The notes under the pieces: model-generated
Databases searched by the model: none
Told to the model about the DNA's origin: nothing
The model's input: the letters and a program-made list of their open reading frames with translations, nothing else
Origin: Siphonodentalium dalli
Taxonomy: Eukaryota; Mollusca; Scaphopoda; Gadilida; Siphonodentaliidae
Reading direction: 5' to 3'
DNA length: 64,000 bases
NCBI GenBank assembly: GCA_032622095.1
Contig: CP136069.1
Span: forward strand, 186,175,122 to 186,239,121
Shown: in pieces, positions 8,105 through 60,930 of the stretch
Layout of the letters: each line of letters begins with the position of its first letter
Numbering within the stretch: the first letter of the stretch is position 1
Position numbers and translations under genes: made by a program

Positions 8105-8706
8105 ACAGCAGGGACCAGCCTAGAGATTTCAAATTGAGAGAAGTCACTTCTCCCCGGGACAAAGATAGAGAGAAGTGGACTGATATCAGGGAGAAATAAC
8201 AATGGGTGAAATTTAATTTACACCTCAACATTACCCTTCTATGATGAAATAAGTATTATGCAACACTGGACTGACCAGAGCCCATTTAGAGAACCATTAA
8301 TATAGTCTGTAAATATACTTTAAATATTGCGACATATGCATAATGGTATACAAGCCTTGAAATAGTGTGCCTGTCATTTGCAGAATGAGGTCCCCAGAGG
8401 GTGAATATAGTGATGCTACCTCGCATAGCGGGCTAGCATCACCAAATTCACCCTCTGGTTACCTCATTCTGCTTACACCTCAGCAGAATGAGGTTTTCAG
8501 AGGGTGAATTTGGTGATGCTAGCCCGCTAGCGGTAGCATCACTAAATTCACCCTCTGGGAACCTCATTCTGCAAATGACAGGCACACTATTTCAAGGCTT
8601 GATGGTATGTGAGAGAGAAGTTACTTCTCCCTGGGACAAAGATTGGGAGAAGTGACAAATTTTAGGGAGAAGATTTCTCCTAAGTCACCCTCTAGGCTGG
8701 TCCCTG
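8105..8706. mobile_element. Outer inverted-repeat element containing a nested palindrome
   Basis: CAGGGACCAGCCTAGAG near 8107 is inverted at CTCTAGGCTGGTCCCTG near 8690. Just inside, GAGAAGTCACTTCTCCC-type blocks occur on both sides. The 251-bp palindrome at 8351-8601 lies between them, so one element appears nested in another. Confidence 0.65.
8351..8601. mobile_element. 251-bp near-perfect palindromic MITE
   Basis: CAAGCCTTGAAATAGTGTGC at 8351 is inverted at the 8601 end, and the arms continue through CAGAATGAGG, CAGAGGGTGAAT and TGATGCTA. Each half also contains its own shorter palindrome (GGTGAATATAGTGATGCTA against TAGCATCACCAAATTCACC), so the element could form either one long hairpin or a cruciform with two side hairpins. 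Confidence 0.85.
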
Positions 8707-11540: not shown

Positions 11541-12196
11541 CATAACTGTTCACTCTCTATGAAGCCACTCCTAACACATAACTGTTCACTCTTTATGAAG
11601 CCACTCATAACACATAACTGTTCACTCTCTATGAAGCCACTCATAACACATAACTGTTCACTCTCTATGAAGCCACCCCTAACACATAACTGTTCACTCT
11701 CTATGAAGCCAGTCCTAACACATAACTGTTCACTCTCTATGAAGCCACTCCTAACACATAACTGTTCACTCTCTGTGAAGCCACTCCTAACACATAACTG
11801 TTCACTCTCTATGAAGCCAGTCATAACACATAACTGTTCACTCTCTATGAAGCCAGTCATAACACATAACTGTTCACTCTCTATGAAGCCACTCATAACA
11901 CATAACTGTTCACTCTCTATGAAGCCAGTCATAACACATAACTGTTCACTCTCTATGAAGCCAGTCATAACACATAACTGTTCACTCTCTATGAAGCCAA
12001 TCATAACACATAACTGTTCACTCTCTATGAAGCCACTCATAACACATAACTGTTCACTCTCTAGGAAGCCAGTCATAACACATAACTGTTCACTCTCTAT
12101 GAAGCCAATCATAACACATAACTGTTCACTCTCTATGAAGCCAATCATAACACATAACTGTTCACTCTCTATGAAGCCAGTCATAACACATAACTG
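11541..12196. repeat. 36-bp minisatellite, about 18 copies
   Basis: The unit is ATGAAGCCACTCATAACACA plus TAACTGTTCACTCTCT, with variation mainly at three bases after GCCA. Because 36 is a multiple of three and the unit lacks stops in one frame on each strand, long open frames appear on both strands (12-residue repeats MKPLITHNCSLS and CVMTGFIESEQL). There is no splice context or non-repeat coding flank, so translation is unlikely. Confidence 0.95.
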
Positions 12197-13454: not shown

Positions 13455-14086
13455 TTAGTTTCTCTTAATTTCCATATCCGTTCGCTCCAGAGATTCCCAC
13501 CATCCGGACAGACATTCCCACGTGATTCCGAAACCTAGCTTATCGCTGTATTTTCCAGGAGACGGCACGTACCGACCATTAATGCAGGAACTTTGGCAAC
13601 AATTGTACCACCACCCAGCCTCGAAATCCTGAGGGCACAAACAACCAGTCCATATGTCAAACGTCGAGAACATTTTTCCGTTGTGATCCCCGATTGCAAA
13701 GAGGCTGTCACATAACGGCCCGATGTGACCAGATGCCGACAATCGATAATAATCCCGAGAATCGGATATCGCGAATCCTGTGTATCGCGATTCGTACTTC
13801 GTTTTGATTCCGAACTTCTTCATGAATATTCGCAGTGATGAGCTGCTCTTCGTCAGTTGGTGGATGGTTTCCAATCCGAGCCAATGTTCCCCGTCGAGAT
13901 CCCCAAATCCCGTGAGGTACTCATCCCAGGTACGATTGAAGTCGACACTGCCATCACGTCTGCGTTGTATGCCTGTCCACCCACCACCTATCATGTTGCA
14001 CCATGCTTCTGTGATTTTATAGCCATCGGGTGCGATTTTATAGATTCCGTCGGTTGATGCCCCACCAAGGAAATGGTCCAGGCAGT
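13455..14086 (-). CDS. Fibrinogen C-terminal (FReD) domain exon, 3'-terminal
   Basis: Minus-strand exon with acceptor ATCTCATTTTATAG just above 14086 and tandem TAA stops at 13457-13452. It encodes about 209 residues, a complete fibrinogen-related domain. In order: DCLDHFLGGASTDGIYKIAP, then WCNMIGGGWTGIQRRRDGSV, DFNRTWDEYLTGFGDLDGEH, WLGLETIHQLT, GWWYNCCQSSCINGRYVPS, and GITWECLSGWWESLERTDME. FReDs in invertebrate secreted proteins bind glycans and microbial surfaces and often act in innate immunity. The usual Asp-rich calcium loop (D-x-D-N-D after FST) is replaced by FDIWTGCLCPQD, with extra cysteines, so calcium binding may be lost. The first codon is split 1/2. No upstream exon is adjacent; the PAN exon at 27672-28082 on the same strand is a candidate 5' exon. 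Confidence 0.92.
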
Positions 14087-14201
14087 CTATAAAATGAGAT
14101 AGTGGTTACAATTACAGAAATGTCTTAAATATGGATTATATCTTAGTAAATACAATAATATATATGAGCCTGTCTGGAAAAGCTATCAATTAATTATATA
14201 A

Positions 14202-26562: not shown

Positions 26563-27671
26563 ATCGAGGTTATAATACACCAAATACAAATTTCCCCTGG
26601 GACCCTCCCCCCCCCCCCAAGCTAGGATCAGCATACAAAAAATCCTGACAGCTGAATGGTCAATGACACATGGATAAAAAGTGCACGAAAAAATGCACAA
26701 ACTTGTTTCCCGACGAGAAATATAGCCACATGGTGAACGGTTACGGCTGTCAAATTGGCAAATAATTTATGGGAGGGGTTGGTGTTTTTTTTCGTTGTCA
26801 TTTTTTCTCTCCATTTAAAGGGTTGTGTGACGTTTGCCAAAACTGCAGTGTGACGCAGCACGTTTAAAAGTACTTTTGGGCACATTTTCGTGCGTCTAAA
26901 AGGACGTTCTTCAATTTTTTATACTCGTGCAGGGTCAAAGATGTCCTGCGAATACAGGCCAGCGGGATTTGTTAACACGGAGGCCTTTGCAAATCATTTG
27001 GTGTATTGTAACCTCGAACGTTACTCTATTCTTGATATGGTGTTAATAATGAGCGTTTATTTCACTTCTGTGCGAAACTTGAAAACAGCTGTAATATGAC
27101 TGTGACCATGGGAAGTATTTTTCAGAGCATATATGGAGCCGGTATTTAACTATTTCGTATACCTCCTTCGAAATTACGCAGACAAAATCTGGAAGCTCGA
27201 ATGAGCCATGTCCGAGCAATATCCTGAATTTAGATATGTGATTTTACCTTCAAACTTGGAGCTGTGTATATGTTTAAGATGCATTGTCGTCATAATAATG
27301 AGATTTCCATCATGGTGAACTTGTTCGTTTCATGACTACACGGGTTTCATGCCGCGACTGTCTGTATGCGTTACTTTAAACATATTTTATTGTGAATTAT
27401 CATATTACAAAGGAATTTGGGTGTGCAAGTTACAAAAATTTACAGGAGACCCATCTCCCGATACGAATTACAATATCTGTTAACAAGAGTATTTACAATT
27501 GTTGTGTATTACAGATAAGAAGTTATAATGGTAAGCGTGTGTACTATGTGTGGTGAGATAATTGTGTTAGTTGCCATATATATCTACATATCGATTAACA
27601 GAAATAAATGGAATTGAAACATGAAACTGCCTCCGTGAAGTATTGCTATAAGATTTGTTTTAAAGACCCAC

Positions 27672-28082
27672 CTTGTGTAGTTTAACGTATCTCACTACAC
27701 TCATGTCTCGTGATGTCTTAGGAGGAACACCGACCACCACATTTCGTTTATCCTGCTTGATCAGGTTGCATTCTTTCCTATTTTTATCGAAAAGAACACT
27801 CCCGCATTTAAAATCAACAAGGCAGAGTGAAACACACTCGAGAATACTCCTCGCCTCGATCACCCTCAGAATGATGTCCGTGAAGTCGATGTCTGATCTG
27901 GACACATAAACTGAGTTCGCATAAACAGCGTCAAGTCCTGGAGTGATTTTTTCGTAGCACGGTTGATTTATGGTACCGATGGCTGATGTATATCCCAGAA
28001 TGCAAAATATAACAATGTTTGCGATAAGCAGTTGACGTCGTGAGACGAAGAATCCTACGAAAGTCTTTGTTAACTCTTCCAT
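27672..28082 (-). CDS. Signal peptide plus PAN/apple domain, first exon
   Basis: Minus-strand open frame ending at donor CACAAG/GTGGGT. It begins MEELTKTFVGFFVSRR, then a hydrophobic stretch LLIANIVIFCILGY and a likely signal cleavage after TSA. After NQPCYEK comes a PAN/apple core ECVSLCLVDFKCGSVLF (C-x3-C-x5-C) and RKECNLIKQDKR. PAN domains mediate protein or glycan binding in secreted proteins and often precede other lectin modules. Using the strong donor the exon is 411 bp, phase 0; a weaker GT at 27667-27666 would give phase 1 and match the FReD exon. The ATG lies inside the terminal repeat of the hairpin element at 28070-28336; the alternative is a splice acceptor TTTCGTAG a few codons downstream. 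Same strand and secreted-lectin logic suggest it belongs with the FReD exon, but this is inference. Confidence 0.72.
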
Positions 28083-28336
28083 GATTGGAGCTTCCTGAAA
28101 TTTATCGAAAACCCTGTGCTAATGCATTCTCTTATATATGCGAGTCTCCCATGTAGGTGTCTGGCAAAAATAAGAGAATACATTAGTCTACCACTATTTA
28201 CCTTGACCTTGTAAGCCAATGCATTTTCTTATATATGCGAGGTTCCCTATATAATGGAGACTCGCATATATAAGACAATGCACCGACCCATGGTATTTAA
28301 TGCTGCACCAGCGCAATTCCCGTCATGAACGGTTAA
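28070..28336. mobile_element. Hairpin TTAA element overlapping the PAN exon start
   Basis: TTAA at 28070-28073 with CTCTTCCATGATTGGAGCTT; right end GCGCAATTCCCGTCATGAAC with TTAA at 28333-28336. The interior contains ACCCTGTGCTAATGCATTCT and hairpin arms of the ATGCATTCTCTTATATATGC type. The left terminus supplies the ATG and first codons of the PAN open frame on the minus strand. Confidence 0.8.
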
Positions 28337-30972: not shown

Positions 30973-31580
30973 ATAACTTTAAGGGTACAATCGAGATGGC
31001 ATCAAGGCGGTCTGACAGGGGTAACTTTTTACGAGTTAGGTAATGGTCAGGGTTAAACTTTTCTAAAGTTACGTTGTTGATACGAGGGATATAAACGTGA
31101 TTTAAGACGCGAAATTGGTGCCGTTTGTGTGAGAGATGGGGGGGGGGGGTAATAAATATGATAAGAATTTGTTTAGTTGCCGAATACCACCAAACTTATA
31201 TATAATCATCTCCATTATATAAAGCACGCATGAGTCTAATATACCTGGTTTATATATGATAAAAGTGGCGTGATTCAAGTCATGCATGAGGGGAGTTGCA
31301 CCAAAGTCGATACAAATATATTAATAGCACTGATTCCACCAAATTCATGCACGTTCGTATCTAATGATATGATTAATTAAATCACATTTGGGACCGTTTG
31401 GTTCATGGATGGCGAGAGGAGATTCACTAGCATTTATAAGAGTGTTCAATTCGCCGATATCCAACAAAGTTATATATAGTCATCTCCCAGGCCATCTCCA
31501 TGTCATTATGAGGAGTTGTTGGCATTCTAATTTCACAATCTCGACAAATGGTGACCGCATTAAGTCACTTGAACAATTAT
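30973..31580. repeat. 600-bp duplicated segment, copy 1
   Basis: ATAACTTTAAGGGTACAATC through TCGACAAATGGTGACCG to TTAAGTCACTTGAACAATTA is repeated at 32154-32766 in the same orientation with few changes. Both copies contain a G run near GAGAGATGGGGGG. Confidence 0.88.
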
Positions 31581-32153: not shown

Positions 32154-32766
32154 ATAACTTTAAGGGTACAATCGATATGGGACCAAGGAGGTCTGACAGT
32201 GGTAACTTTTTACGAGTAAGATAATGGTCAGGGTTAAACTTTTCTAAAGTGACGTTATTGATACGAGGAATACAAACGTGTGATTTGAAGACGCGAAATT
32301 GGTGCCGTTTGTGTGAGAGATGGGGGGGGGGGGGGTAATAAATATGATAAGAATTTGTTCAGTTGCCGAATACCACCAAACTTATATATAATCATCTCCA
32401 TTATACAATGCATGCATGAGTCTAATAGACGTGGTTTATATATGGCACAAGTGGCGCGTTTCAAGTCATGCATGAGGGGAGTTGCAACAAAGTCGATACA
32501 AATATATTAATAGCACTGATTACACCAAATCCATGCACGTTCGTCTCTAATGACATGATTAATTTTATTACATTTGGGGCCGTTTGGGGATTGGATGGGG
32601 AGAGGAGATTCACTAGCATATATAAGAGTGTTCAATTCGCCGATATCCAACAAAGTTATATATAGTCATCTCCCGGGCCATCTCCATGTCGCTATGAGGA
32701 GTGGTTGGCATTCCAATTTCACAATCTCGACAAATGGTGACCGAATTAAGTCACTTGAACAATTAT
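32154..32766. repeat. 600-bp duplicated segment, copy 2
   Basis: Direct partner of 30973-31580, offset by about 1.18 kb. Sequence between the copies (31581-32153) is not duplicated. Confidence 0.88.
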
Positions 32767-35344: not shown

Positions 35345-36118
35345 GTAGTAGTAGTATTTATTTGTACAATATATAGATATTTGTAACAATACAGTGTACA
35401 TAAGTGAACATATGTATATTGTACAGGAGCGGCATGGCCAAAATTGGCCGTCTTCCTGCCGCCCCTATATATAGCTGTAATTTAAGTCATAAAACGACAA
35501 CGAGAAATGGAATGGTATTTTGAAATAACGGAATGGTGTATCCAAACTTATTGCACACATGATGGTTTACCATGGACTGGGCTTAGTATTACTTTATCAT
35601 AGGTACAGAGTCTGGCTGAAGTATTATTCCTTTAGAAAGGAACAGAGCAAGTGTCTTTCAATGTTTCTTTTCATTTTGTTCGTACTCATCTAGTTGTAAA
35701 GACTAATTTTGCGTTCTTCCAGCCAAAATGTAAGGCGAACATACCTGGCTTTTTCAATCGCAAGTTTAATGGTGGGGCTCATGTCGTGCAGTTTATGTAT
35801 CTGTGCAATCTCGACAAAATGAATTGTTACATTTAATTTGTGACGAGTATCGCGATATGTAACTTTTTGTCAGTACATTTTAAAATCTATTTCGAAACAT
35901 TATGTTCTTGTTATTTTTATCCAGTCAAAAATAAATGTCGCAGCTTGTAGTTGATATAAGTCGTGGAATTTCAAAATATGTTCATGCAGAAAAATGGGTT
36001 CTGTGTGACTTCTATATGATTTATTGGATATTATTCTGATTGCCCTTTTCTGTTGTTTAAAGATAGTGCCTCCTGTATCGGCATGACCCCAAATTGACAA
36101 ACCATAGATGAGATTAAT
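35345..36118 (-). pseudogene. Truncated non-LTR retrotransposon (LINE), 3' end
   Basis: On the minus strand an open frame (36118 to 35900) reads INLIYGLSIWGHADTGGTIF, then KQQKRAIRIISNKSYRSHTE. This is the C-terminal connection region that follows reverse transcriptase in LINE ORF2 proteins (W-G then QKRAIRII, with Y-x-x-H-T). It is followed by about 550 bp of 3' UTR ending in a TAC-rich tail near 35345. All of ORF1, the endonuclease and the RT core are missing. The upstream border is exactly where the 43-bp satellite begins. Confidence 0.8.
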
Positions 36119-38214
36119 AGTAATCATGGCCCAATCAGTCCAGTCTCTTCACAATAATAGTCACCATGGCCCAATCAGCCCAGTATCTTCACAATAATAG
36201 TAAGCATGGCCCAATCAGCCCAGTATCTTCACAATAATAGTCACCATGGCCCAATCAGTCCAGTCTCTTCACAATAATAGTAATCATGGCCCAATCAGTC
36301 CAGTCTCTTCACAATAATAGTAATCATGGCCCAATCAGTCCAGTCTCTTCACAATACTAATAGTCACCATGGCCCAATCAGTCCAGTCTCTTCACAATAC
36401 CAATAGTCACCATGGCCCAATCAGTCCAGTCTCTTCTCAATACTAATAGTCACCATGGCCCAATCAGTCCAGTCTCTTCTCAATACTAATAGTCACCATG
36501 GCCCAATCAGTCCAGTCTCTTCTCAATACTAATAGTCACCATGGCCCAATCAGTCCAGTCTCTTCTCAATACTAATAGTCACCATGGCCCAATCAGTCCA
36601 GTCTCTTCTCAATACTAATAGTCACCATGGCCCAATCAGTCCAGTCTCTTCTCAATACTAATAGTGACCATGGCCCAATCAGTCCAGTCTCTTCTCAATA
36701 CTAATAGTCACCATGGCCCAATCAGTCCAGTCTCTTCTCAATACTAATAGTCACCATGGCCCAATCAGTCCAGTCTCTTCACAATACTAATAGTCACCAT
36801 GGCCCAATCAGTCCAGTCTCTTCACAATACTAATAGTCACCATGGCCCAATCAGTCCAGTCTCTTCACAATACTAATAGTCACCATGGCCCAATCAGTCC
36901 AGTCTCTTCACAATACTAATAGTCACCATGGCCCAATCAATCCAGTCTCTTCACAATACTAATAGTCACCATGGCCCAATCAGTCCAGTCTCTTCACAAT
37001 ACTAATAGTCACCATGGCCCAATCAGTCCAGTCTCTTCACAATACTAATAGTCACCATGACCCAATCAGTCCAGTCTCTTCACAATACTAATAGTCACCA
37101 TGGCCCAATCAGTCCCTTCACAATACTAATAGTCACCATGGCCCAATCAGTCCAGTCTCTTCACAATACTAATAGTCACCATGGCCCAATCAGTCCAGTC
37201 TCTTCTCAATACTAATAGTCACCATGGCCCAATCAGTCCAGTCTCTTCACAATACTAATAGTCACCATGGCCCAATCAGTCCAGTCTCTTCACAATACTA
37301 ATAGTCACCATGGCCCAATCAGTCCAGTCTCTTCACAATACTAATAGTCACCATGGCCCAATCAGTCCAGTCTCTTCACAATAATAATAGTCACCATGGC
37401 CCAATCAGTCCAGTCTCTTCACAATACTAATAGTCACCATGGCCCAATCAGTCCAGTCTCTTCACAATACTAATAGTCACCATGGCCCAATCAGTCCAGT
37501 CTCTTCACAATACTAATAGTCACCATGACCCAATCAGTCCAGTCTCTTCACAATACTAATAGTCACCATGGCCCAATCAGTCCCTTCACAATACTAATAG
37601 TCACCATGGCCCAATCAGTCCAGTCTCTTCACAATACTAATAGTCACCATGGCCCAATCAGTCCAGTCTCTTCTCAATACCAGATACCAATCCAAATCTT
37701 AATATTAACCATGGCCCAATCAGTCCAGTCTCTTCACAATACCAATAGTCACCATGGCCCAATCAGTCCAGTCTCTTCACAATACTAATAGTCACCATGG
37801 CCCAATCAGTCCAGTCTCTTCACAATACTAATAGTCACCATGGCCCAATCAGTCCAGTCTCTTCTCAATACTAATAGTCACCATGGCCCAATCAGTCCAG
37901 TCTCTTCACAATACTAATAGTCACCATGGCCCAATCAGTCCAGTCTCTTCACAATACTAATAGTCACCATGGCCCAATCAGTCCCTTCTCAATACCAGAT
38001 ACCAATCCAAATCTTAATATTAACCATGGCCCAATCAGTCCAGTCTCTTCACAATACCAATAGTCACCATGGCCCAATCAGTCCCTTCACAATACTAATA
38101 GTCACCATGGCCCAATCAGTCCAGTCTCTTCACAATACTAATAGTCACCATGGCCCAATCAGTCCAGTCTCTTCTCAATATCAGATACCAATCCAAATCT
38201 TAATATTAACTTAA
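36119..38214. repeat. 43-bp satellite, about 48 copies
   Basis: The unit is AGTCACCATGGCCCAATCAG plus TCCAGTCTCTTCACAATACTAAT. Variants are CTTCTCAATACT, AATAATAGT and a shorter unit lacking CAGTCT (CAGTCCCTTCAC). A different insert, CAGATACCAATCCAAATCTT plus AATATTAACC, appears near 37680, 37993 and at the right end 38180. A roughly 469-bp block carrying the CATGACCCAATC and short-unit variants occurs twice (near 37054 and 37523), which indicates higher-order duplication. Long open frames across it are artefacts. Confidence 0.97.
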
Positions 38215-39290: not shown

Positions 39291-39314
39291 TGTATAATCT
39301 GCATTGAAGTCACC

Positions 39315-41095
39315 TTATTAACCCTTTCTATATTACAGCACCATTGGCGTGTAGTTACCTTATTAACCATTCTATATTAAATCATTAATTGACAGGTAGT
39401 TACCTTATTAACCCTTTCTATACTAAGTAACATTGGTGAGTAGTTACATTATTAACCCTTTCTTTATTAAAGCACCATTGATGTGAAGTTACCTTATTAA
39501 CCCTTTCTTTATTAAAGCATCATTGACGCGTAGTTACCTTATTAACCCTTTCTATATTAAAATATCATTGATGTGTAGATACAATGTTAACCCTTTCTAT
39601 AGTATAGCATCATTGGCGGGTAGTTGGCTCCTTAACTCTGTATATACCAAAGTATCATTGTCGTATATAGTTACCTTATTAACCCTTTCTATACTAAGTA
39701 CCGTTGGCGTGTAGTTGCCTTATTAACCCTTTCTATATTAAAGCATTAATTGACAGGTAGTTACCTTATTAACCCTTTCTATACTAAGTATCATTGGTGA
39801 GTAGTTGCATTATTAACCCTTTCTATATTAAAGCGCCATTGGCGGGTAGTTACCTTATTAACCATTTATGTATTAAAGCATCATTGACGTGTAGTTACCT
39901 TATTATAACCCTCTCTATATTAAAGCATCATTATTGCTGGGTAGTTATCTTATTAACCCGTTCTATACTAAGTATCATTGGTGAGTAGTTACAGTATTAA
40001 CCCTTTCTATATTAAAGCATCATTGACGTGAAGTTACCTTATTAACCATTTCTGTATTAAAGCAGCATTGACATGTAGTTGTTAACCCTTTCTATATTAA
40101 AGCATCGTTGACGGGTAGTTGCCTAATTAACCCTCTATATACTAAAGTATCATTGTCGTGTAGTTACCTTACCAACCCTTTCTATACTAAGTATCATTGG
40201 CGTGTAGTTACCTTATTAACCTTTTCTATATTAAAGCTTTAATTGACAGGTAGTTACATTAAACAACCCTTTCTATACTAAGTATCATTGGTGAGTAGTT
40301 ACATTATAAACCATTTCTATATTAAAGCGCCATTGACGGGTAATTACCTTATTAACCATTTTGGTATCAAAGCATCATTGACGTGCAGTTACCATATTAT
40401 AACACTTTCTATATTAAAGCATCATTGACTGATAGTTACCATATTAACCCTTTCTATATTAAAGCACCATTGGCGTGTAATTACCTTATTAACCCTTTCT
40501 ACGTTGAAGCAATAATTGACAGGCAGTTACCTTATTAACCCTTTTTATAATGAGTATCATTGGTGATTAGTTACATTATTAACCCTTTCTACAATAAAGC
40601 ATCATTGACATGTAGTTATCATAGTAGCCAGTTATATATTAAAGCATCATGGACGGTAGTTACCATATTAACCCTTTCTAAATTAAAGCACCATTGGCGT
40701 GTAATTACCATATTAACCCTTTCTATATTAAAACATCATTGACGTGTAGTTACCCTATTAGCCCTTTCTATATTTAAGCATCATTGACGTGTAGAACTTT
40801 ATCTTATTAACCCTTTCTTTATTAAAGCATCATTGACATGTAGTTACCTTAGTAACCATTTCTACACTAAAGCATTATTGACGGGTAGTTACCTTATTAA
40901 CCCTTTCTATATTAAAGCATCATTGACAAGAAGTTAAATTATTAACCTTCTATAATAAGTATCATTGCCGTGTAGTTATAGTTACCTTATAAAACCTTTC
41001 TATATGAAGACGTCGATCATTGACGGGTAGTTGTTACCTTATTAATCATTTATGTATTCAAGCATCATTGACGAGTAGTTACCTTATTACTTGAA
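39315..41095. repeat. 45-bp satellite derived from a TTAA-element end, about 38 copies
   Basis: Consensus unit TTATTAACCCTTTCTATATT, AAAGCATCATTGACGTGTAG, TTACC. Variation is high (AAGTATCATTGGTGAG, AAGCACCATTGGCGTG, missing parts). TTAACCCTTTCTATAxTAAA is the terminal motif of the elements at 28714-28975 and 54778-55033, so the satellite appears to be an amplified transposon terminus. Confidence 0.9.
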
Positions 41096-42790: not shown

Positions 42791-43094
42791 AACACACTGT
42801 GCACAGATGAATGTTTATACATGTACTGTGCAGTCGAGATCACCTGGACTACAAATATTTGAGGATTGTACTATTTGATGAGTAGATGCGTGACTGATAA
42901 AAGAATTAGAGACTCCATATTTACTCGGAAGATAACAGTATACGATGCCATACAGTTGTTCCATAACACCTCAACCTTTGGTGGATATTAACAGTAAAAC
43001 TAATGAAAATGATGAAAGCCAGACTCAACATCAAGACAACATGTGCATGCATAAGTGACGGTTCAATGATTTTGACTCCATCAGATGATATTTA

Positions 43095-43474
43095 AGCGAC
43101 ACCAATTTTTAAGTCTGGTTTACGATGTGGGGAGAAAAAAAGTAGATGCAGGAGGGAAAAAAATAAAAATAAAAAAGATTGTCCCCCCAATTTATATCAA
43201 GTAAATCGTGGAATTTTACATAAATTTTACAAAAATTGTGAAAAAATGTTTTTGAATGAAATTCTGTTCAAACCAAACAAGACATATCTTGTCATGAAAT
43301 ACATGAAAATATGGATCTGTAAATGATCATAAGCAGAACCGGATGCGACAGCACATGAAAATCAGTACGCGTGTAAAATATTTTGGGACAAAAAAATAAA
43401 AAAAAAAATTCATGAAATGGAAACAAAGTTGTAGGAGGTGTTCGTAAACCAGACTTAAAAATTGGTGTCGCCTT
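43095..43474. mobile_element. TIR element, GGCGACACCAATTTTTAAGT family, copy 1
   Basis: Left GCGACACCAATTTTTAAGTC plus TGGTTTACGA; right TCGTAAACCAGACTTAAAAA plus TTGGTGTCGCC. These are about 30-bp terminal inverted repeats. A second copy in inverse orientation is at 50476-50871; the bodies share AATTTATATCAAGTAAATC and GCTTATGATCATTT. About 380 bp, non-coding. Confidence 0.85.
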
Positions 43475-43658
43475 AGGCTCATGTTAACACAGGATCACAT
43501 ATTCTCAAAATAATTGTCTCCCTCAAGTTGGCCTCAACCATACTAGTATTTATATTTGATAGAACCTCAGTGAGACCATGTTGAAAATTACCATCAATGC
43601 AGTTCCAGTGTTGACGCAACGCGGTCATGTTACTTCAAACCAGTTGCAATGTTCCTTA

Positions 43659-48341: not shown

Positions 48342-48769
48342 TATCTGTTTTAGTGCACATCAAATGTATTTGTTGTCTTTCCTCTTGTAATTTGTCTTTG
48401 GTTGTGTTCGCCATTTCGATGGACAACTACATGTACTGACATCAAATGACTGAAATGAGTCAAAATTTAGCAGTGCAGCCAATTATATAGATAAACAGAA
48501 TTAAATAGCATCCAAATTCCAAATGAGCATAAATGATAAAACAAACTTTATTGAGCACTCTTTTAATACTAGTAATTACAGCTACAATGAAAGCACCTAA
48601 TAAAAATTCTAAGTTTGGTAAAACTGTCTGTATACAAAGTTTATCTGGCCGTGATGAATAAAACCTATAAATGGGATCATATACATGTATGTTAGATATC
48701 ATTACATGATTATTTGAAAACACATATCCGTATGGAAAACAAACTATTTTACCACTGGCCAAGTGGTCC

Positions 48770-48883
48770 TGCTAATATGCTATGATGCTGGTGGTCCTGC
48801 TGAATTGCTATGATGCGGGTAGTGCAATTCATAGCAATTAAGCAGGACCCAACCGCATCATAGCACATTAGCAGGAACACTTG
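48770..48883. repeat. Hairpin element with nested direct repeats
   Basis: CAAGTGGTCCTGCTAATATG and GCTATGATGC pair with GCATCATAGC and ACATTAGCAGGAACACTTG. Inside each arm a second CCTGCTGAATTGCTATGA-type block repeats the pattern. A half copy lies at 57600-57655. Confidence 0.8.
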
Positions 48884-49482
48884 AACAGGGTATATTTACA
48901 GTGTCAAATCGAATGGGCATCTTTTAACAATATTTTTGAACAATTTCCTAGAAGTGTTCGAAAATTGAGAACTGAATTTAAATTTTTTTTTATGAGGTTT
49001 CGATTGAAAAATTTCTAACTTAGCTCATCAGGATTAACATTGTCGCACAGCTATATTCTCTTTCCCAACAAAGTGTATAGAACATACATGTAAAATTACA
49101 GCTATGCTTTAATTAATCAACTCGCCTTATATTACTCGGGTATTACTGCAGTATTCAGGCGTGTTCATGCGATCAACCGCAGTCAGTTATACCGCCGCAG
49201 AATGTGGTCCACCTCACATTTGCAGTTAGGCTGTATTTTTCATGCGATGTTTATATGAATTTTGTTTTAAAGTTGACATTGTAATCACACCAGAATTTTT
49301 TTTTATTGTTTCAAAATGTCTAGATAGAATTCAGAATTTTTGTGGTAAAAACAATTAACTTGGTTATCACAGTTAACACATATTACTGTGGTAAGATTAC
49401 CAGCGGATACCGCATGTCAACAGGGACTGCATGCTCTAATTAATTATCAGGTTTAACATGTTTATACTGGATACAGTTCATT

Positions 49483-51130: not shown

Positions 51131-52470
51131 CACCATTTCATGGGACACTGGTTGGATTGTTCTGAAATGTAGTATCGGATTTAGGGGACCTTGATATATT
51201 TTTCAGACAAGCTGATGCCCCAAAGAAGCCACTTTTTCTCACATTTGCTGAAATAGTATCCAAAACATCAACATATCAAGAGCCATTAGACTGAATTAGA
51301 TAAAAATATATCACTTGGGTCTGTTTAAGCTGGAAAATACTCAAAAATTTTATAATTTTCTGCTATTATATCTGCATACTAGCCTTTTTGCTGAATCGTG
51401 AATGCCGGTTATATTGCCGTGTGAAATCCTAGTACCAGATAACATTGGGTATGTACATGTATATAGCATACCACCTGAAAATGGCTTGAATATCACATAC
51501 CAAAGCGGGGTGGGGGTGTGTGTGACACCCTCCTTGATCATAGTCTGTATTCTACAGGGTATGTTAACTGTTTCGAGTTGGTGCAATTAATGTGATTGTT
51601 TAATCTCTACCATCTGAAATCTATTTATAGCATATTTTGCTATCTGATCAATATTGCTACTTAGTACTGATATAAAACAGGATAAAGATGGTGTGTCTCT
51701 TTCCCGAATGTTCTGTTTACATGTACATTTGGGGGTTTATGAGTCAAATAATATCAGACAACATGTCCTTCTAACACTAAGAAATAATATGTTCTTATGA
51801 ACCAGGACAAAATATGACTATTTCTGGAGCATTACAGCACATTATTACAAATCTATATTTGTAAGCAGTAAGATAATGACAGGAAACATGTCCTCAGACT
51901 AAGAAATAATTTTTTGGTGTGTATTTCACACCACAGCTCATGTGTATACTCACATTAGTTTATGTCATTCAAAGGGAGAAACCCATTTAGAAAGTTTAAA
52001 TGAGACAAAACTACCTCACTGTAGATGTAGTTGCAAGGTACAACATGTACATGTATTCTGGTAAATGACATTGGAACTAAAATAATGATTTTTGTGTCCA
52101 CCGGTATGTCATGTACCGGTACTAGTATACATTGCAACTACATGTACATGTAACTTGCCTAACATACCATATACATGTATGAAGAGGGACTTTGCAAGTG
52201 TTTTTTAATCAAAATTTTAACCCAACTCTTGTTGTCAGTAAGTTTTAACCCATGCAGTTTAATGAGTTTATATATTTATATATTACATGTGTTTCTATAC
52301 ATGTATTTTATCTTTAGTTAGTTTGTTGTCCTTGAATAAACTTGTATTGCTGCACAATCAGTTTCCTTAATGTTCTATTATACTAAAACAACTCCATTGA
52401 TAACAATACCCCTGCATCCCATCAAAATCTACTTCATTGCCATCCTCATCATTTCACTTTGGTATCCCCA
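51131..52470. other. Intergenic interval, no gene supported
   Basis: No exon or named repeat. TACATGTA motifs continue to about 52180. Confidence 0.45.
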
Positions 52471-53311
52471 CCCAGGTGTACCTTGGTGTTATTCACCCAG
52501 GTGTTCCTTGGTGTTTCCTACCCATGTGTACCTTGGTGTTTTCTTACCCAGGTGTACCTTGGTGTTTTCTTACCCAGGTGTACCTTGGTGTTTTCTTACC
52601 CAGGTGTACCTTGGTGTTTTCCTGCCCAGGTGTACCTTGGTGTTTCCTTACCTGGGTGTACCTTGGGGTTTTCTAACCCAGGTGCATCTCAATGGGAAAT
52701 CCACCTGGGTAAGAAAACACCAAGGTACACCGGCGTAAAAAAAACACCAAGGTATACCTGGGTTGGAAACATCAAGGTACACCTGGGTGGGGAACACCCA
52801 GGTAGGAAACACCAGGGTACACCTGGGTGAATAACACCAAGGTACACCTGGGTGGGAAACACCCAGGTAGGAAACACCAGGGTACACCTGGGTGAATAAC
52901 ACCAAGGTACACCTGGGTGGGAAACACCCAGGTAGGAAACACCAGGGTACACCTGGGTGAATAACACCAAGGTAACCTGGATGGGAAACACCCAGGTAGG
53001 AAACACCAGGGTACACCTGGGTAAATAACACCATGGTACACCTGGGTGGGGAAACACCCAGGTAGGAAACACCAGGGTAGACCTGGGTGGGAAACACCCA
53101 GGTAGGGTACACCTGGGTGTGGTCACCTGGGTAATTACACCCAGGTTTACCCATACCAGGGTTTTTATCCAGTTTCAGGTGGGTAAATCATGGTAAAACC
53201 CAGGTTTCGCGGGGTCTTGATGGTTGGTGGATGTCTTGGTAGATAGATTTTTACCTGGGTTTCGGCCCAAAAAACCTGGGTGGATTTACCCAGGTACATT
53301 TTTATATGGGA
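52471..53311. repeat. Inverted CCAGGTGTACCTTGGTGTT minisatellite
   Basis: From 52471 to about 52690 the unit ACCCAGGTGTACCTTGGTGT plus TTTCTT repeats about eight times. At about 52690 the array switches strand, and AACACCAAGGTACACCTGGG repeats to about 53110, grouped in higher-order units with GGAAACACCCAGGTAGGAAA. The right end GTACATTTTTATATGGGAT is the inverse of the start of 38985-39290. Open frames across it are artefacts. Confidence 0.93.
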
Positions 53312-55627: not shown

Positions 55628-56361
55628 ATAGGTAAAATCGAAAAATGACTAATTAAGGGCCATAACTCTATCAAATTTTATCGGGCCAGGCTGGTTTTCG
55701 AACTCGTCCGAAATATTCTTGGCAAGTATGTCTATTCCAAATTTTAAACAAATCGGAGGACGTTTGTTGAAGTTATCGTGCTAACGAGCTAAAAATTCAC
55801 GAAAAATGACTAATTAAGGACCATAACTCTATCAAATTTTTCGAACTCGTCCAGGATATTATTGGAAGACACTAATATACCAAATTTTAGTTGAATCGGA
55901 TGACGTTTGTTGAAGTTATCGCGCTAACGAGCTGAAAATTCGTGAAAAATGACTAATTAAGGGCCATAACTCTATCAAATTTTATCGGACCAGGCCGGTT
56001 TTCGAACTCGTCCGATATATTCTTGGGAGACACCTATATACCAAATTTCAATCAAATCGGATAACGTTTGTTGAAGTTATCGCGCTAACGAGCTGAAAAT
56101 TCGTGAAAAATGAATAATTAAGGGCCATAACTCTATCAAATTTTATCGGACCAGGCCGGATTTCGAACTCGTCCGAGATATTCTTGGGAGACACCTATAT
56201 ACCAAATTTCAATCAAATCGGATAACGTTTGTTGAAGTTATCGCGCTAACGAGCTGAAAATTCGTGTAAAAATGAATAATTAAGGGCCACAACTCTATCA
56301 AATTTTATCGGACCTGGCCGGTTTTCGAACTTGAACGAGATATTCGTGGGAGACACCTATA
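55628..56361. repeat. 161-bp tandem repeat, left part
   Basis: TTAAGGGCCATAACTCTATC recurs at about 55653, 55813, 55957, 56118 and 56280, with ACCAGGCCGGTTTTCGAACT and AACGTTTGTTGAAGTTATCG in each full unit. AGGGCCATAACTCT blocks are abundant in mollusc genomes. The array is interrupted at CACCTATA by the 4-kb element and resumes at 60350. Confidence 0.9.
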
Positions 56362-59300
56362 TGGGCATTTTTCAAAAAAAGTGGACTATTTCTGTCCATC
56401 ACCATTTATTTTTAGAAAAGTTTATTAATGATCACATTTTTTTATTTTGAGATATAATATGGGATGGGGTCGACTTGTTGCAGACCCTATATCATCCGCT
56501 CCTTGATATCTCTACAATCCAGAGGCTCGTAATATGGCCAAAATGGCCAATTATGCCTGTCCCATTTTCCGAAATCTCCCCAAAAACAGACATTTTTGTA
56601 TAAAATATGACCATTAAATACCACTTTATTAGACAATTTGCATCATATGTAACACGCCTGATCATAAAATCACAAAATATGCACAATTTTTACCAAGTCA
56701 AGTAACATAATTTAGGTCACAAAACTGTCCCACGATTGGTGGTCCCTACTGTTACCAAGAGAGAAACACATAATACAACAGTCCTGGCATTGGCGAATGA
56801 GGAAGTGCAAATTGGTTTCCAGTACTACTCATCAGTACACATGGCTAAACAACTGTTATCCGCTGGTCGGTGCAATTAATTTGCCCGTAATTAACAGTAT
56901 CATTCATCAGACAGGTGAGTACATTTGGAGTGTGTCACTACTGTTACCGATAGATACAGGTCTGTGAGTTTATTATTACACAAATGTTTCTCTTCTTAGT
57001 TTTGTCCAATGTGATCCCCGTGGGGCAACACATACATTTTGTTACATAACAATGGACGACCGGTGGGAATCCCCTTTATAACCCGAAACGTCCCTACTGT
57101 TACCGTCCCTACTGTTACCTTTTAAATTGTAACAGTAGGGAAAACTTTGGTAACAGCATGGACAAAATTAAAAAAAATGGCATGAGTAAGTATTAGTTTG
57201 CATGTCGTAATGATTTTGACATCACCATGCTCTGGTTCCTGGCTTATAACATCAATATTTTCACAGATTTTACTCATCATTCCTGTCTCGGTCAGATAAT
57301 GCTGGATGTGGTAACAGGAGGGACATTGCGGTAACAGCAGTGACAATAGATTACACAGTTGTTATTTTTGGCAGTGAATTGACATATATTTGTATTTCCT
57401 TGCAGAACGCCTTCCATTCTGTCTTCCACACACTCATTTTGATATAGAATGTTTTCTATTATACTTGATTGAGATCCAGTAAATGAAAGTATACGTGCTC
57501 ATTTGCAATGATCAAACAGTTTTCACATAAATTCACTTAGGGCCAATTCCCATGCCCAACACAAACCCGTGTAAACTGTCAGATATAGACACACACCTGA
57601 TCAAGTGGTCCTGCTAATATGCTATGATGCTGGTAGACCTGCTGATATGCTATGATTTCAAAAACTCACGAAATTAAATTACTGCGGTTGTGCACAAGGT
57701 ACATACGTATATGTATGTGAAAAGTCATTTAATTGTGAGGTACTATATTCTAATTCCAAACAAAGTATCTCCATCATTCCGCAGCGATTCCATTATTCAT
57801 CTACGACATACACGAAATATACAGAGTTTACTATAATCAGTATTTAACGAGACCGCTACTCGTGTGTAAACAAATAGCAATGAGCAAACGGTGTTAACTG
57901 GATATTAGCTATCAACATACTAGTAGTAAAAGGTGCACTACCATTGTACATGACCACCTGCCATGCTGCAGACGTCAGAAGTTGTTCAATCTAAACCTGT
58001 CTAGTAACCAAATCAAAATTTATTTTAAAGCCAGTTACAGCAGGTGGGGGGGGGGGGGGGGGGGGTCTGCAATTTTTTCCGAACACTAGGCGGGTGGGTG
58101 GGTGAATCTTTCAGCAGCCCGACTGACACATTTTTTCCTGGCCCTGTAACTTTTTTCCTCGAATCAATTGTCTTCAAAATGATGGGACATAAGGTTTTAA
58201 GAATGCTTCTATTACATGTATGTAATAGGTATGTACTTAACTCTTGGTTTCACCATCAGTTAATAATGATGGATGACACCAAGTGGCAATAAAAAGGTCA
58301 GCTTGCTAAATGTTTTCATCAAGGATCTATCAATGCACATTGACACGGAATGGCTCAGATTTAAATAGTTCTAATAAAAATAATTTATTCAACCTGATAT
58401 AAATGAAAACAACACAAAAATAGATTCTTAAAAAAAATATAAACTCTTCACTGAACTCTTCAAATAAAAATAGAATATTCTAAAAAACATAATAAAATAA
58501 AACAAAGGTGTCAGAACAAACTTTGACCGATTTCAACGATATTCGGTATATAGATCTGGGGGTCACCTCTAGATGGGAGTTGCCAAATTTGAATGACTTT
58601 TTTATGAAAAATATGGCCGCTGGCAGCCATCTTGGATTTTACTCTTTGTATGACCAAATCCTTTAGCGCACTTTGCAGGTTACATTTCTCATCCAATCAT
58701 CACCAAAACTTCATATGGATCTTCGAAGTGACCTCTAGAAGGGAGCCTCCATGTTTCCCCCAAAATGTGTTTCAAACAAACATTGCTATCTTGGACTTTA
58801 AATGCCAATCCACCAGCATACCATACAGCCCACATTTATTGGAGACTTGTTTTGAAACATGTCTTGTTGGTAAATAAAACAAGGAATGCTTCTTTAATCA
58901 TTATATGGAACATTGATCAGATAAGATCATGAGAACTGAATAAATAGTCATTTGAAGCAGTTTGGAGGGGTGGATCCCTATCACAGAATGGGAAAAAAAT
59001 TAGGGGGTGGTGAGTACCAACAGGGCAGAAAAATAAAAAAGCTCCTAGCATCAGGAATTTTTTTCCTGACACCTCCCCCTGATTAGTGGAATTTCAAACA
59101 AAACATATTTTGTTCACTATACAACAGATGTACGCATGTATGCGTCGGACGAAGGTAATTTTATCAAATTTTGCGCATGGTGTCAATGAACATCGTGCGA
59201 AATGTATTATTGTATTATCATTTCAATACTATATTTAAACACAATGTTCATGTGTGTCTTGCTTATTGTCACTCTGTAGTGTATCAATATGCCATTACCA

Positions 59301-60349
59301 GTATGTGATCTCTGTTTATAGTTAAAATTGTCACACAGTTCTGCAATAATACATCATACGAAAAATAAATCCACGGTTATAGTCTGACAACAAATATGAA
59401 TTGCCAATATGCTATAGTTACGCTAATGTCCTTTCTGTTACCGGAGACCAATTGCGGCGTGTATGTCATAAATTTCATCAATTGCACCTATATTTGACGA
59501 TCAGAACCTTAGCTTTTAGTTATCCTATGCCGGATCGCATACTATATTGTGTTGTTGGTCACATTTGGTATATATGTGTCCTTCCTGTTACTACCAGTCC
59601 TTCATGTTACCAAATGATAGGCTAATATGCATCAGACTATCGTTTAATACATTTTGTTTCCAGGTCTGGTACGCATTTGGTCCAGTTGGGTCTCGTTCAC
59701 TTATGGAAAGTGACATTTTGTTTTATTGTTGGAAATAATGTTTCCACAAGTATGTTCATAATAAAACTGTCCCTTCTGTTACATCAAGTGTCTCTCCTGT
59801 TATTGGCTTGTCCCATCTGTTACTGTCGAGTTTTTCTGTCGTATCGAGATTAATTTGAATTGGATTCCCTCATCCCGATAGAATTGTGGAGTATTTACCT
59901 TAATCTTCGGAAAAATATATGGCCATAATCAAACAGAAATGCACACCATTCCAGATCGAGAAAACTCGATACCTGGATATCGGAAATTTATGCATATCAC
60001 ATATACATTATCATAACTCGTTATACTCATCATATTTTGGTGTTTATTTTTGCAAATTCTGATTACCACACAATGCACATGTTGCGCATGTGTTATTTTC
60101 CACCTCTATATCACTCAAAATCATATTTACATTGAAAAACATAATGGCAACAGTAGGGACACTAGGTGTGTGTGCATCGTCATTGGACCTGATTCGGACA
60201 GGATCTAGGGGTGATTAAGGTTGCATTTTACTATCCTCTGATCTACTAGATACCCTCAACCACGAAAAGCGGCTAAAATATGTTTTCTCGTTGAAATAAT
60301 TTTTTGATTCTTGAATACCCAAATCGGCCACATTTTTGAAAAATGCCCA
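56362..60349. mobile_element. 4-kb TIR DNA transposon with subterminal GTCCCTnCTGTTACC motifs
   Basis: TGGGCATTTTTCAAAAAAAG plus TGG at the left is inverted at CCACATTTTTGAAAAATGCC plus CA at the right. The flanking 161-bp repeat gives the empty site CACCTATATACCAAA, so the duplication is TA (or ATAT if the ends are GGGC/GCCC). Fifteen copies of a motif close to GTCCCTACTGTTACC lie in two clusters: 56742-57344 (four plus, four minus) and 59428-60160 (six plus, one minus). None lies in the central 2 kb. Such subterminal arrays usually bind transposase. No transposase was recognised; the centre holds a 20-base G run and a segment with AATATGGCCGCTGGCAGCCA. Confidence 0.75.
58046..58065. repeat. 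Poly-G tract, 20 bp
   Basis: Uninterrupted G run inside the 4-kb element; potential G-quadruplex. Confidence 0.95.
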
Positions 60350-60760
60350 TATACCAAATTTTAATCAAATCTGATAACGTTTGTTGAAGTTATCGCGCTA
60401 ACGAGCTGAAAATTCGTGAAAAATGAATAATTAAGGGCCATAACTCTATCAAATTTTATCGGACCAGGCCGGTTTTCGAACTCGTCCGAGATATTCTTGG
60501 GAGACACCTATATACCAAATTTCAATCAAATCGGATAACGTTTGTTGAAGTTATCGCGCTAACGAGCTGAAAATTCGTGAAAAATGAATAATTAAGGGCC
60601 ATAACTCTATCAAATTTTATCGGACCAGGCCGGTTTTCGAACTCGTCCGAGATATTCTTGGGAGACACCTATATCCCAAATTTCAATCGAATCAGAAAAC
60701 GTTTGTTGAAGTTGTTGCGATAACGAGCCTAAAATCAGTGAAAAATGGCAAAGGGCCATA
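60350..60760. repeat. 161-bp tandem repeat, right part
   Basis: Resumes with ATATACCAAATTTTAATCAA. Units start at about 60431 and 60592, then decay into AAAATGGCAAAGGGCCATAA. It is continuous in phase with 55628-56361 once the 4-kb element is removed. Confidence 0.9.
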
Positions 60761-60930
60761 ACTCTGTAATAAACGGGCGGACGAACCCGATTTTTTGTCT
60801 GCAGCTTACGTGCATGGATATGTACTCACACACCAAATTTTTTAATCCGTCAATAAACGATTGAGTTATAAGCAAAACACGCCGCCCGCCCGCCCGCCCG
60901 TCCGCCGCCCGCCCACCGTCCCTCATCAAA
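60761..60930. repeat. Mollusc-type repeat tail, GGGCGGACGAACCC to CCGCCCGCCC
   Basis: GGGCCATAACTCTGTAATAA plus ACGGGCGGACGAAC leads into CACACACCAAATTTTTTAAT and the tract CGCCCGCCCGCCCGCCCGTC. The layout resembles the GGAC-rich ends at 34990-35110 and is probably the terminus of the 161-bp repeat family. Confidence 0.7.

Follow-up and report, generated by a model that had tools for sequence, protein, structure and literature searches.

In Galileo, a transposon of the P superfamily, the THAP domain of the transposase binds sites approximately 70, 561 to 577, and 701 to 718 bp from the ends, as demonstrated in footprint and gel shift experiments, and the authors suggested that the multiple sites give specificity and proposed that they act as secondary determinants in recognizing the ends (PMC3688188). 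In CACTA transposons, which are called exclusive to plants, the protein TnpA binds subterminal repeats (PMC8195511). Here we describe an inserted element of about 4 kb in a 64,000-nucleotide stretch of the genome of the scaphopod mollusk Siphonodentalium dalli (contig CP136069.1, positions 186,175,122 to 186,239,121), referred to below as the window, in whose coordinates all positions are given. The element carries 15 copies of a 15-bp motif in two subterminal arrays. Galileo is the closest demonstrated precedent, and CACTA with TnpA is another. The likeness to Galileo is that of several short sites hundreds of base pairs inside the ends, although the Galileo sites lie within terminal inverted repeats (TIRs) of approximately 1.2 kb, whereas the arms here are not inverted repeats beyond approximately 30 bp. 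The subterminal repeats of 10 to 20 bp in both orientations that mark CACTA elements are found here as well, and the non-autonomous lettuce element LsC1 (3,913 nt, with 28-nt imperfect TIRs) is of similar size (PMC8195511), but CACTA ends are lacking here and the arrays start at distances of 189 and 380 bp from the ends. The design is of a known kind, and the array is unusually distant and ordered.

The element splits a tandem repeat with a 161-bp unit, which breaks off at 56362 and continues from 60349, and the two sides of the interrupted array are 96.7% identical over 330 bp (56033 to 56362 versus 60346 to 60674). Joining the flanks restores an intact 161-bp unit under a duplication of either TA or ATAT, and the borders that a preliminary description had read from the interrupted repeat are thereby upheld. 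The empty site, CCTATATACC, is found in array units at 56025, 56186, and 60499. The stretch that spans the insertion point is present in five other units, in these same three as an exact GGGAGACACCTATATACCAAATTT and in the remaining two with 1 difference or, at 55864, with 3 of 24 bases different. The insertion of a DNA transposon with subterminal motif arrays, as originally proposed, is well supported by the empty site, by the TIR, and by the statistics of the motif given below, and for this one insertion its status as a transposon is confirmed.

A short TIR exists at the ends, but its length had been put at about 22 bp: 17 bp are perfect, and in the 30 columns of the inverted alignment there are 26 matches, 3 mismatches, and one gap (alignment score of 38, versus a maximum of 27 among 300 shuffles). 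The target duplication is ambiguous, being either ATAT with GGGC ends or TA with TGGGC ends. Under the TA reading, the ends are TGGGC...GCCCA and the 17-bp perfect TIR is the longest that is accompanied by a duplication; under the ATAT reading, the ends are GGGC...GCCC and the perfect TIR, at 16 bp, is equally symmetric. A third formal reading has no duplication, ends beginning ATGGGC, and an 18-bp TIR, and all remaining duplication readings give asymmetric ends. An element of the same type might be served by a TA-duplicating transposase, either Tc1/mariner-like or from a relative of Harbinger of the TA type, for example PHISTA, in which case the arrays would work alike and only the family would differ. 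We regard this as a possibility of the lesser sort: the 17-bp TIR takes in the outer T/A pair and PHISTA has TA duplications, but the TATATA target may itself supply that pair, the ATAT reading is no less symmetric, and the PHISTA families described there come from rust fungi (PMC12730594). For Tc1/mariner, a TA duplication fits the locus, and ATAT fits it too. A rolling-circle element of the Helentron type is extremely improbable, as perfect 17-bp TIRs bound the element on either side and a duplication of 2 or 4 bp accompanies them, a combination that is not known as a rolling-circle signature, and as the motif arrays are subterminal rather than a single tandem block. What speaks for such an element is that non-autonomous Helentron-type carriers of satellite-like repeats were reported in the Pacific oyster (PMC7492417).

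The motif, GTCCCTNCTGTTACC, has 17 matches with at most 3 mismatches in the 64 kb of the window, versus a mean of 2.93 and a largest count of 8 in 100 shuffles. Fifteen of the matches lie inside the element, which confirms the count in the preliminary description, and the other two (10475 and 43915) have 3 mismatches each. Fourteen of the coordinates first given were correct; the full 15-mer placed at 57129 starts at 57128 (Table 1). Among the 15 copies, four match GTCCCTNCTGTTACC exactly, six have one mismatch, four have two, and one (59790) has three. A matrix built from the 15 sites scores them at 16.7 to 27.6 bits and gives no more than 9.1 bits anywhere else in the window, a separation that is partly circular because the same sites went into the matrix; the notion that the motif is a dispersed satellite, which had been named as an alternative, finds no support in the 64-kb window at that score.

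Table 1. Coordinates of the element, its ends, its motif copies, and the flanking tandem array in the window
Feature	Position	Strand	Remarks
Left part of interrupted 161-bp array	55640..56361	.	
Left border TATAT	56358..56362	.	Contains duplication: TA 56360-56361 or ATAT 56359-56362
Whole element, TA reading	56362..60349		3988 bp; in interrupted 161-bp unit
Whole element, ATAT reading	56363-60348		3986 bp
Left TIR TGGGCATTTTTCAAAAA	56362..56378	+	17 bp perfect; similarity extends to about 56391
Motif 1	56742..56756	+	Exact
Motif 2	56934..56948	+	1 mismatch
Motif 3	57090..57104	+	Exact; adjoins motif 4 directly
Motif 4	57105..57119	+	Exact; opposed to motif 5, 8 bp between
Motif 5	57128..57142	-	2 mismatches
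Motif 6	57149..57163	-	1 mismatch; 21 bp from motif 5
Motif 7	57310..57324	-	Exact
Motif 8	57330..57344	-	1 mismatch; 20 bp from motif 7
Motif-free middle	57345..59427	.	Longest frame 89 amino acids, without Pfam match
Motif 9	59428..59442	+	1 mismatch
Motif 10	59578..59592	+	2 mismatches
Motif 11	59597..59611	+	2 mismatches; 19 bp from motif 10
Motif 12	59769..59783	+	1 mismatch
Motif 13	59790..59804	+	3 mismatches; 21 bp from motif 12
Motif 14	59810..59824	+	2 mismatches; 20 bp from motif 13
Motif 15	60146..60160	-	1 mismatch; outermost of right arm, strand opposite to other right-arm motifs
Right TIR	60333..60349	-	
Right border ATATA	60349..60353	.	Second copy: ATAT 60349-60352 or TA 60350-60351
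Right part of 161-bp array	60350..60765	.	

A further count was made without naming a motif, taking the commonest 15-mer in a sequence (at most 3 mismatches, copies non-overlapping, words dominated by a single base excluded). The commonest 15-mer has 15 copies in the element, versus 4 to 6 in all 20 dinucleotide shuffles, and 5 to 9 copies in 10 of 14 pieces taken from the rest of the window. The remaining four pieces reach 15, 22, 27, and 49 copies, mostly owing to tandem arrays (within or bordering the array, 11 of the 15 positions at 11541 to 12196, 21 of the 22 at 39308 to 41089, and 26 of the 27 at 52470 to 53119; for the 49 copies, as judged from the first and last positions); the other four positions of the 15-copy piece sit in a palindromic repeat at 8380 to 8572. 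The motifs are therefore real and are specific to the element within the window. They lie 189 to 968 bp from the nearer end, in agreement with the range of 0.2 to 1 kb and the empty middle noted earlier, and under uniform scatter the 2-kb middle would be empty with a probability of 2.5e-5 counted by sites or 0.0035 counted by eight clusters.

Identity among the motif copies averages 81%, whereas that of the 24-bp flanks is 28% and 26%, against 27% by chance (95 of 105 pairs, those separated by 45 bp or more). At each motif edge the information falls off over one or two bases, position 7 is free, and the pattern reads TGTCCCT-N-CTGTTACCR. Since a duplication would carry flanks along and a protein contact would not, the ending of identity at the motif edges makes the copies look like kept binding sites rather than duplicated blocks. 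Motifs left over without function from neutral local duplication, through a minisatellite-like spread, would be a different account of the same array, one with which the perfect abutting tandem at 57090 and 57105 and the commonness of other short repeat arrays in the window agree; the chance-level flanks, the copies on both strands in arms 2 kb apart, and the absence of a comparable score elsewhere in the 64 kb make it very unlikely. As a separate observation, the free position 7 holds a purine in 7 of the 8 left motifs and a pyrimidine in 6 of the 7 right motifs (Fisher P = 0.01, post hoc).

The arrays also show patterns of spacing, period, and orientation, which are suggestive. Seven of the 14 gaps between neighbors are shorter than 30 bp (2.2 expected), and five are 19 to 21 bp (0.44 expected), a number reached in none of the 2,350 accepted random placements out of 20,000 drawn, placements with overlapping sites having been discarded and the arms bounded by eye. 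The motifs form eight clusters, with center spacings of 192, 186, and 200 bp on the left and 160, 202, and 356 bp on the right, and a shared period of approximately 186 bp fits these spacings best (P = 0.002, or 0.004 to 0.016 with the outer clusters fixed, at four merging distances). Read from its own end inward, the left arm has the orientation ++++---- and the right arm +------, with one switch per arm, such that in both arms the outer motifs point inward and the inner motifs outward; the chance of one-switch orientation in both arms is 0.0022 if sites are independent. The arms differ in motif number and spacing and are not copies of one another.

Two further readings of the arrays draw on the same period of approximately 186 bp, which resembles a nucleosome repeat. 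The arrays could bind a host protein (a transcription factor, silencer, or replication factor) that controls expression, silencing, or spread instead of taking part in end recognition, and the position of every motif at least 189 bp inside the ends would suit this as the period does. However, arrays at both ends with mirror-like orientation better fit end recognition, a promoter array would more naturally lie on a single side, and there is no recognizable gene to drive. We consider host-protein binding rather unlikely, although it is a fair rival. It is more speculative, and in our estimate improbable, that transposase assembles on the linkers of positioned nucleosomes over approximately 1 kb per end before the TIRs are cut, in which case the clusters recurring at approximately 186 bp, with the motifs of each cluster on one helical face, might represent chromatin-register docking, an undescribed architecture of end recognition in an undescribed animal family.

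The longest stop-to-stop frame overlapping the element is the one listed for its middle, and a Pfam search of the six-frame translation of the element, with stops masked and E values up to 1 admitted, returned 0 families, the filters of that search dropping most matches above an E value of approximately 0.1. By frames and Pfam, no captured or remnant transposase was found in the element. Because no recognizable coding sequence is present, this copy is non-autonomous. The motif-free middle holds a repeat fragment (57596 to 57658) and a poly-G run of 20 bases (58046 to 58065); the fragment belongs to a short near-palindromic hairpin repeat, TGGTCCTGCTAATATGCTATGATG..., at 48755 to 48890. A nested transposon in the middle was considered and is unconvincing (alignment score of 35 inverted, unshuffled, and 30 direct), the middle having a single inverted pair of 9 bp whose flanks match over 3 bp. 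BLAST within the window, at E values up to 1e-3, found no further copy of the element, and apart from the element and its facing motif pair the sole matches were short, between 57596 to 57658 and 48760 to 48889 and in the poly-G tract. No second copy of the TIR with at most 2 mismatches was found in the 64-kb window, and Rfam gave 0 matches over its whole length.

Taken with the ends and the arrays, this leads us to propose that the element is probably a non-autonomous cut-and-paste DNA transposon whose arrays dock a partner transposase or an accessory protein. The ends of 17 to 30 bp would be the cleavage sites, and the arrays may serve as secondary docking sites for several molecules of transposase or of an accessory DNA-binding protein of the same family, supplied by an unseen autonomous partner. 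The docked molecules would stand two helical turns apart, in an order that runs from inward-pointing outer sites to outward-pointing inner sites in both arms, and the filled arrays could mark the DNA as a transposon and help to join the ends before cutting. It would be the filling of the two arrays that makes the mark, since a single 15-mer occurs by chance in large sequence collections. The binding of transposase by the arrays, in our inference, is plausible.

Several points weigh against this proposal. It concerns a single copy without an encoded transposase, and the binding is a prediction. The right-arm motifs are more diverged than the left (12 mismatches in 7 sites versus 5 in 8), such that the term near-identical in the preliminary description was generous for that arm. 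The tests of spacing, period, and orientation were picked after the data had been seen, and neighboring motifs may be non-independent. With the TIR and the motifs set aside, the arms are in neither orientation more alike than shuffled sequence: the observed score was reached by 99 of 300 shuffles for the outer stretches inverted, and by 64 of 100 (inverted) and 23 of 100 (direct) for the motif-masked arms, and longer inverted arms, none exceeding shuffles, are rejected. Finally, the internal sites of Hermes were judged unlikely to act in transposition (PMC10368747).

Which family would supply the partner was considered from the ends. If the duplication is the 4-bp ATAT, a Sola2-like partner can be suggested tentatively: Sola2 elements have 4-bp AT-rich (AWWT) duplications that include ATAT, with TIRs of 12 to 21 bp in amoebozoan examples (PMC3627910), and the TIRs here are also short (16 to 17 bp perfect), a feature that is not Sola2 specific. 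ATAT fits with GGGC ends, but TA fits equally, in a comparison of one insertion with Sola2 by its description, and this copy differs in having no transposase. Among the mollusks studied, Sola elements are seemingly restricted to bivalves, and 14 Sola2 consensus sequences were curated (PMC10294476). Among the literature matches listed, there is no report of subterminal arrays in Sola2.

Other families differ from the element in at least one feature. The P superfamily, to which Galileo belongs, has target duplications of 7 to 8 bp, whereas the duplication here is at most 4 bp. That length also departs from the 5 to 8 bp of hAT elements (as defined in PMC12730594), although the BED-bound repeats of the hAT element Hermes are alike in having copies on both sides, asymmetry between ends, and a largely uniform orientation within an arm (PMC10368747). 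CACTA (EnSpm) elements have CAC...GTG ends (PMC12730594) instead of the TGGGC or GGGC seen here; duplication length is no strict test for them, as the wider CMC group has 2 to 4 bp (PMC4482050). The PHIS group (ISL2EU, PIF/Harbinger, and Spy) shares AT-rich targets with the element, and ISL2EU TIRs start with GG, but the targets of the group (AT in AATT, TWA, and none in AAATTT) do not match the symmetric readings. For ISL2EU, only asymmetric ends would allow an AT duplication, in a TATATA target rather than AATT; for PIF/Harbinger, TWA is not seen, and the 3-bp readings ATA or TAT break TIR symmetry; for Spy, the no-duplication reading with its 18-bp TIR exists, but the target is CCTATATACC and not AAATTT (definitions from PMC4482050). 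The TTAA duplication of Kolobok and piggyBac is absent, as are the long direct terminal repeats (approximately 450 or 660 bp) of KolobokP, which is composite and rich in bivalves (definitions from PMC9587614); the longest direct repeat reported in the element is 29 nt. Because Harbinger, ISL2EU, Spy, Kolobok, KolobokP, CACTA, and hAT are each contradicted by a feature examined here, while ATAT and TA fit equally, the element is filed at class level only, as a non-autonomous TIR transposon with TIRs, a duplication at the empty site, and no transposase gene.

Searches of viral and prokaryote collections gave 0 matches to tandem motif pairs, facing motif pairs, or the flank repeat. The TIR was matched in 7 stretches there, none with a second inverted TIR in the sequence covered, and the single motif in at least 120 and at least 117 stretches. 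The motif (at most 2 mismatches) was counted in 244 loci from these scans, of which the five highest were inspected and the other 239 counted only: L160 has 12 copies, L212 has 9, and L177, L119, and L087 have 3 each. The first three are evenly spaced arrays in bacterial contigs (approximately 228, 50, and 144 to 147 bp, respectively), and the last two, in viral contigs, have scattered sites. The TIR and motif matches in these collections were judged to be coincidence. The letter strings of the motif, TIR, and flank repeat were unmatched in the open-licence literature, where strings broken in print would be missed, and for subterminal repeats combined with bivalves, mollusks, or Sola, no description of this array appears among the open-licence matches listed; as a sign of novelty, this silence is weak evidence.

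Elsewhere in the window, 6 of the 12 longest open frames were compared with Pfam and 2 matched, one with a Fibrinogen_C domain (13455 to 14105, minus strand, E = 1.3e-44) and one with a weak PAN_1 domain (27660 to 28118, minus strand, E = 1.6e-6), a pair in keeping with an invertebrate animal. Minisatellite arrays occur at 36115 to 38180 (43-bp units), 39308 to 41089 (45-bp units), 11541 to 12196 (36-bp units), and 52470 to 53119 (units of about 25 to 65 bp in both orientations). The repeat at 8380 to 8572 consists of nearly two copies of a 103-bp unit that is palindromic in its own right (GAGGTCCCCAGAGGGTGAAT ... ATTCACCCTCTGGGAACCTC). The window also holds a direct duplication of approximately 0.6 kb (30973 to 31580 and 32154 to 32766; 92%) and an inverted duplication of approximately 0.4 kb (43092 to 43475 and 50874 to 50473; 88%).

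A non-autonomous element must keep the DNA that its transposase needs, and the 15-fold motif may hence be a clue to how the ends of this scaphopod element are recognized. If other members of the family share the arrays, the motif could be used as a tag to trace the autonomous partner, and the arrays would allow a test of whether animal transposases dock hundreds of base pairs from the cut site, as Galileo transposase appears to do and as plant CACTA elements do via an accessory protein.

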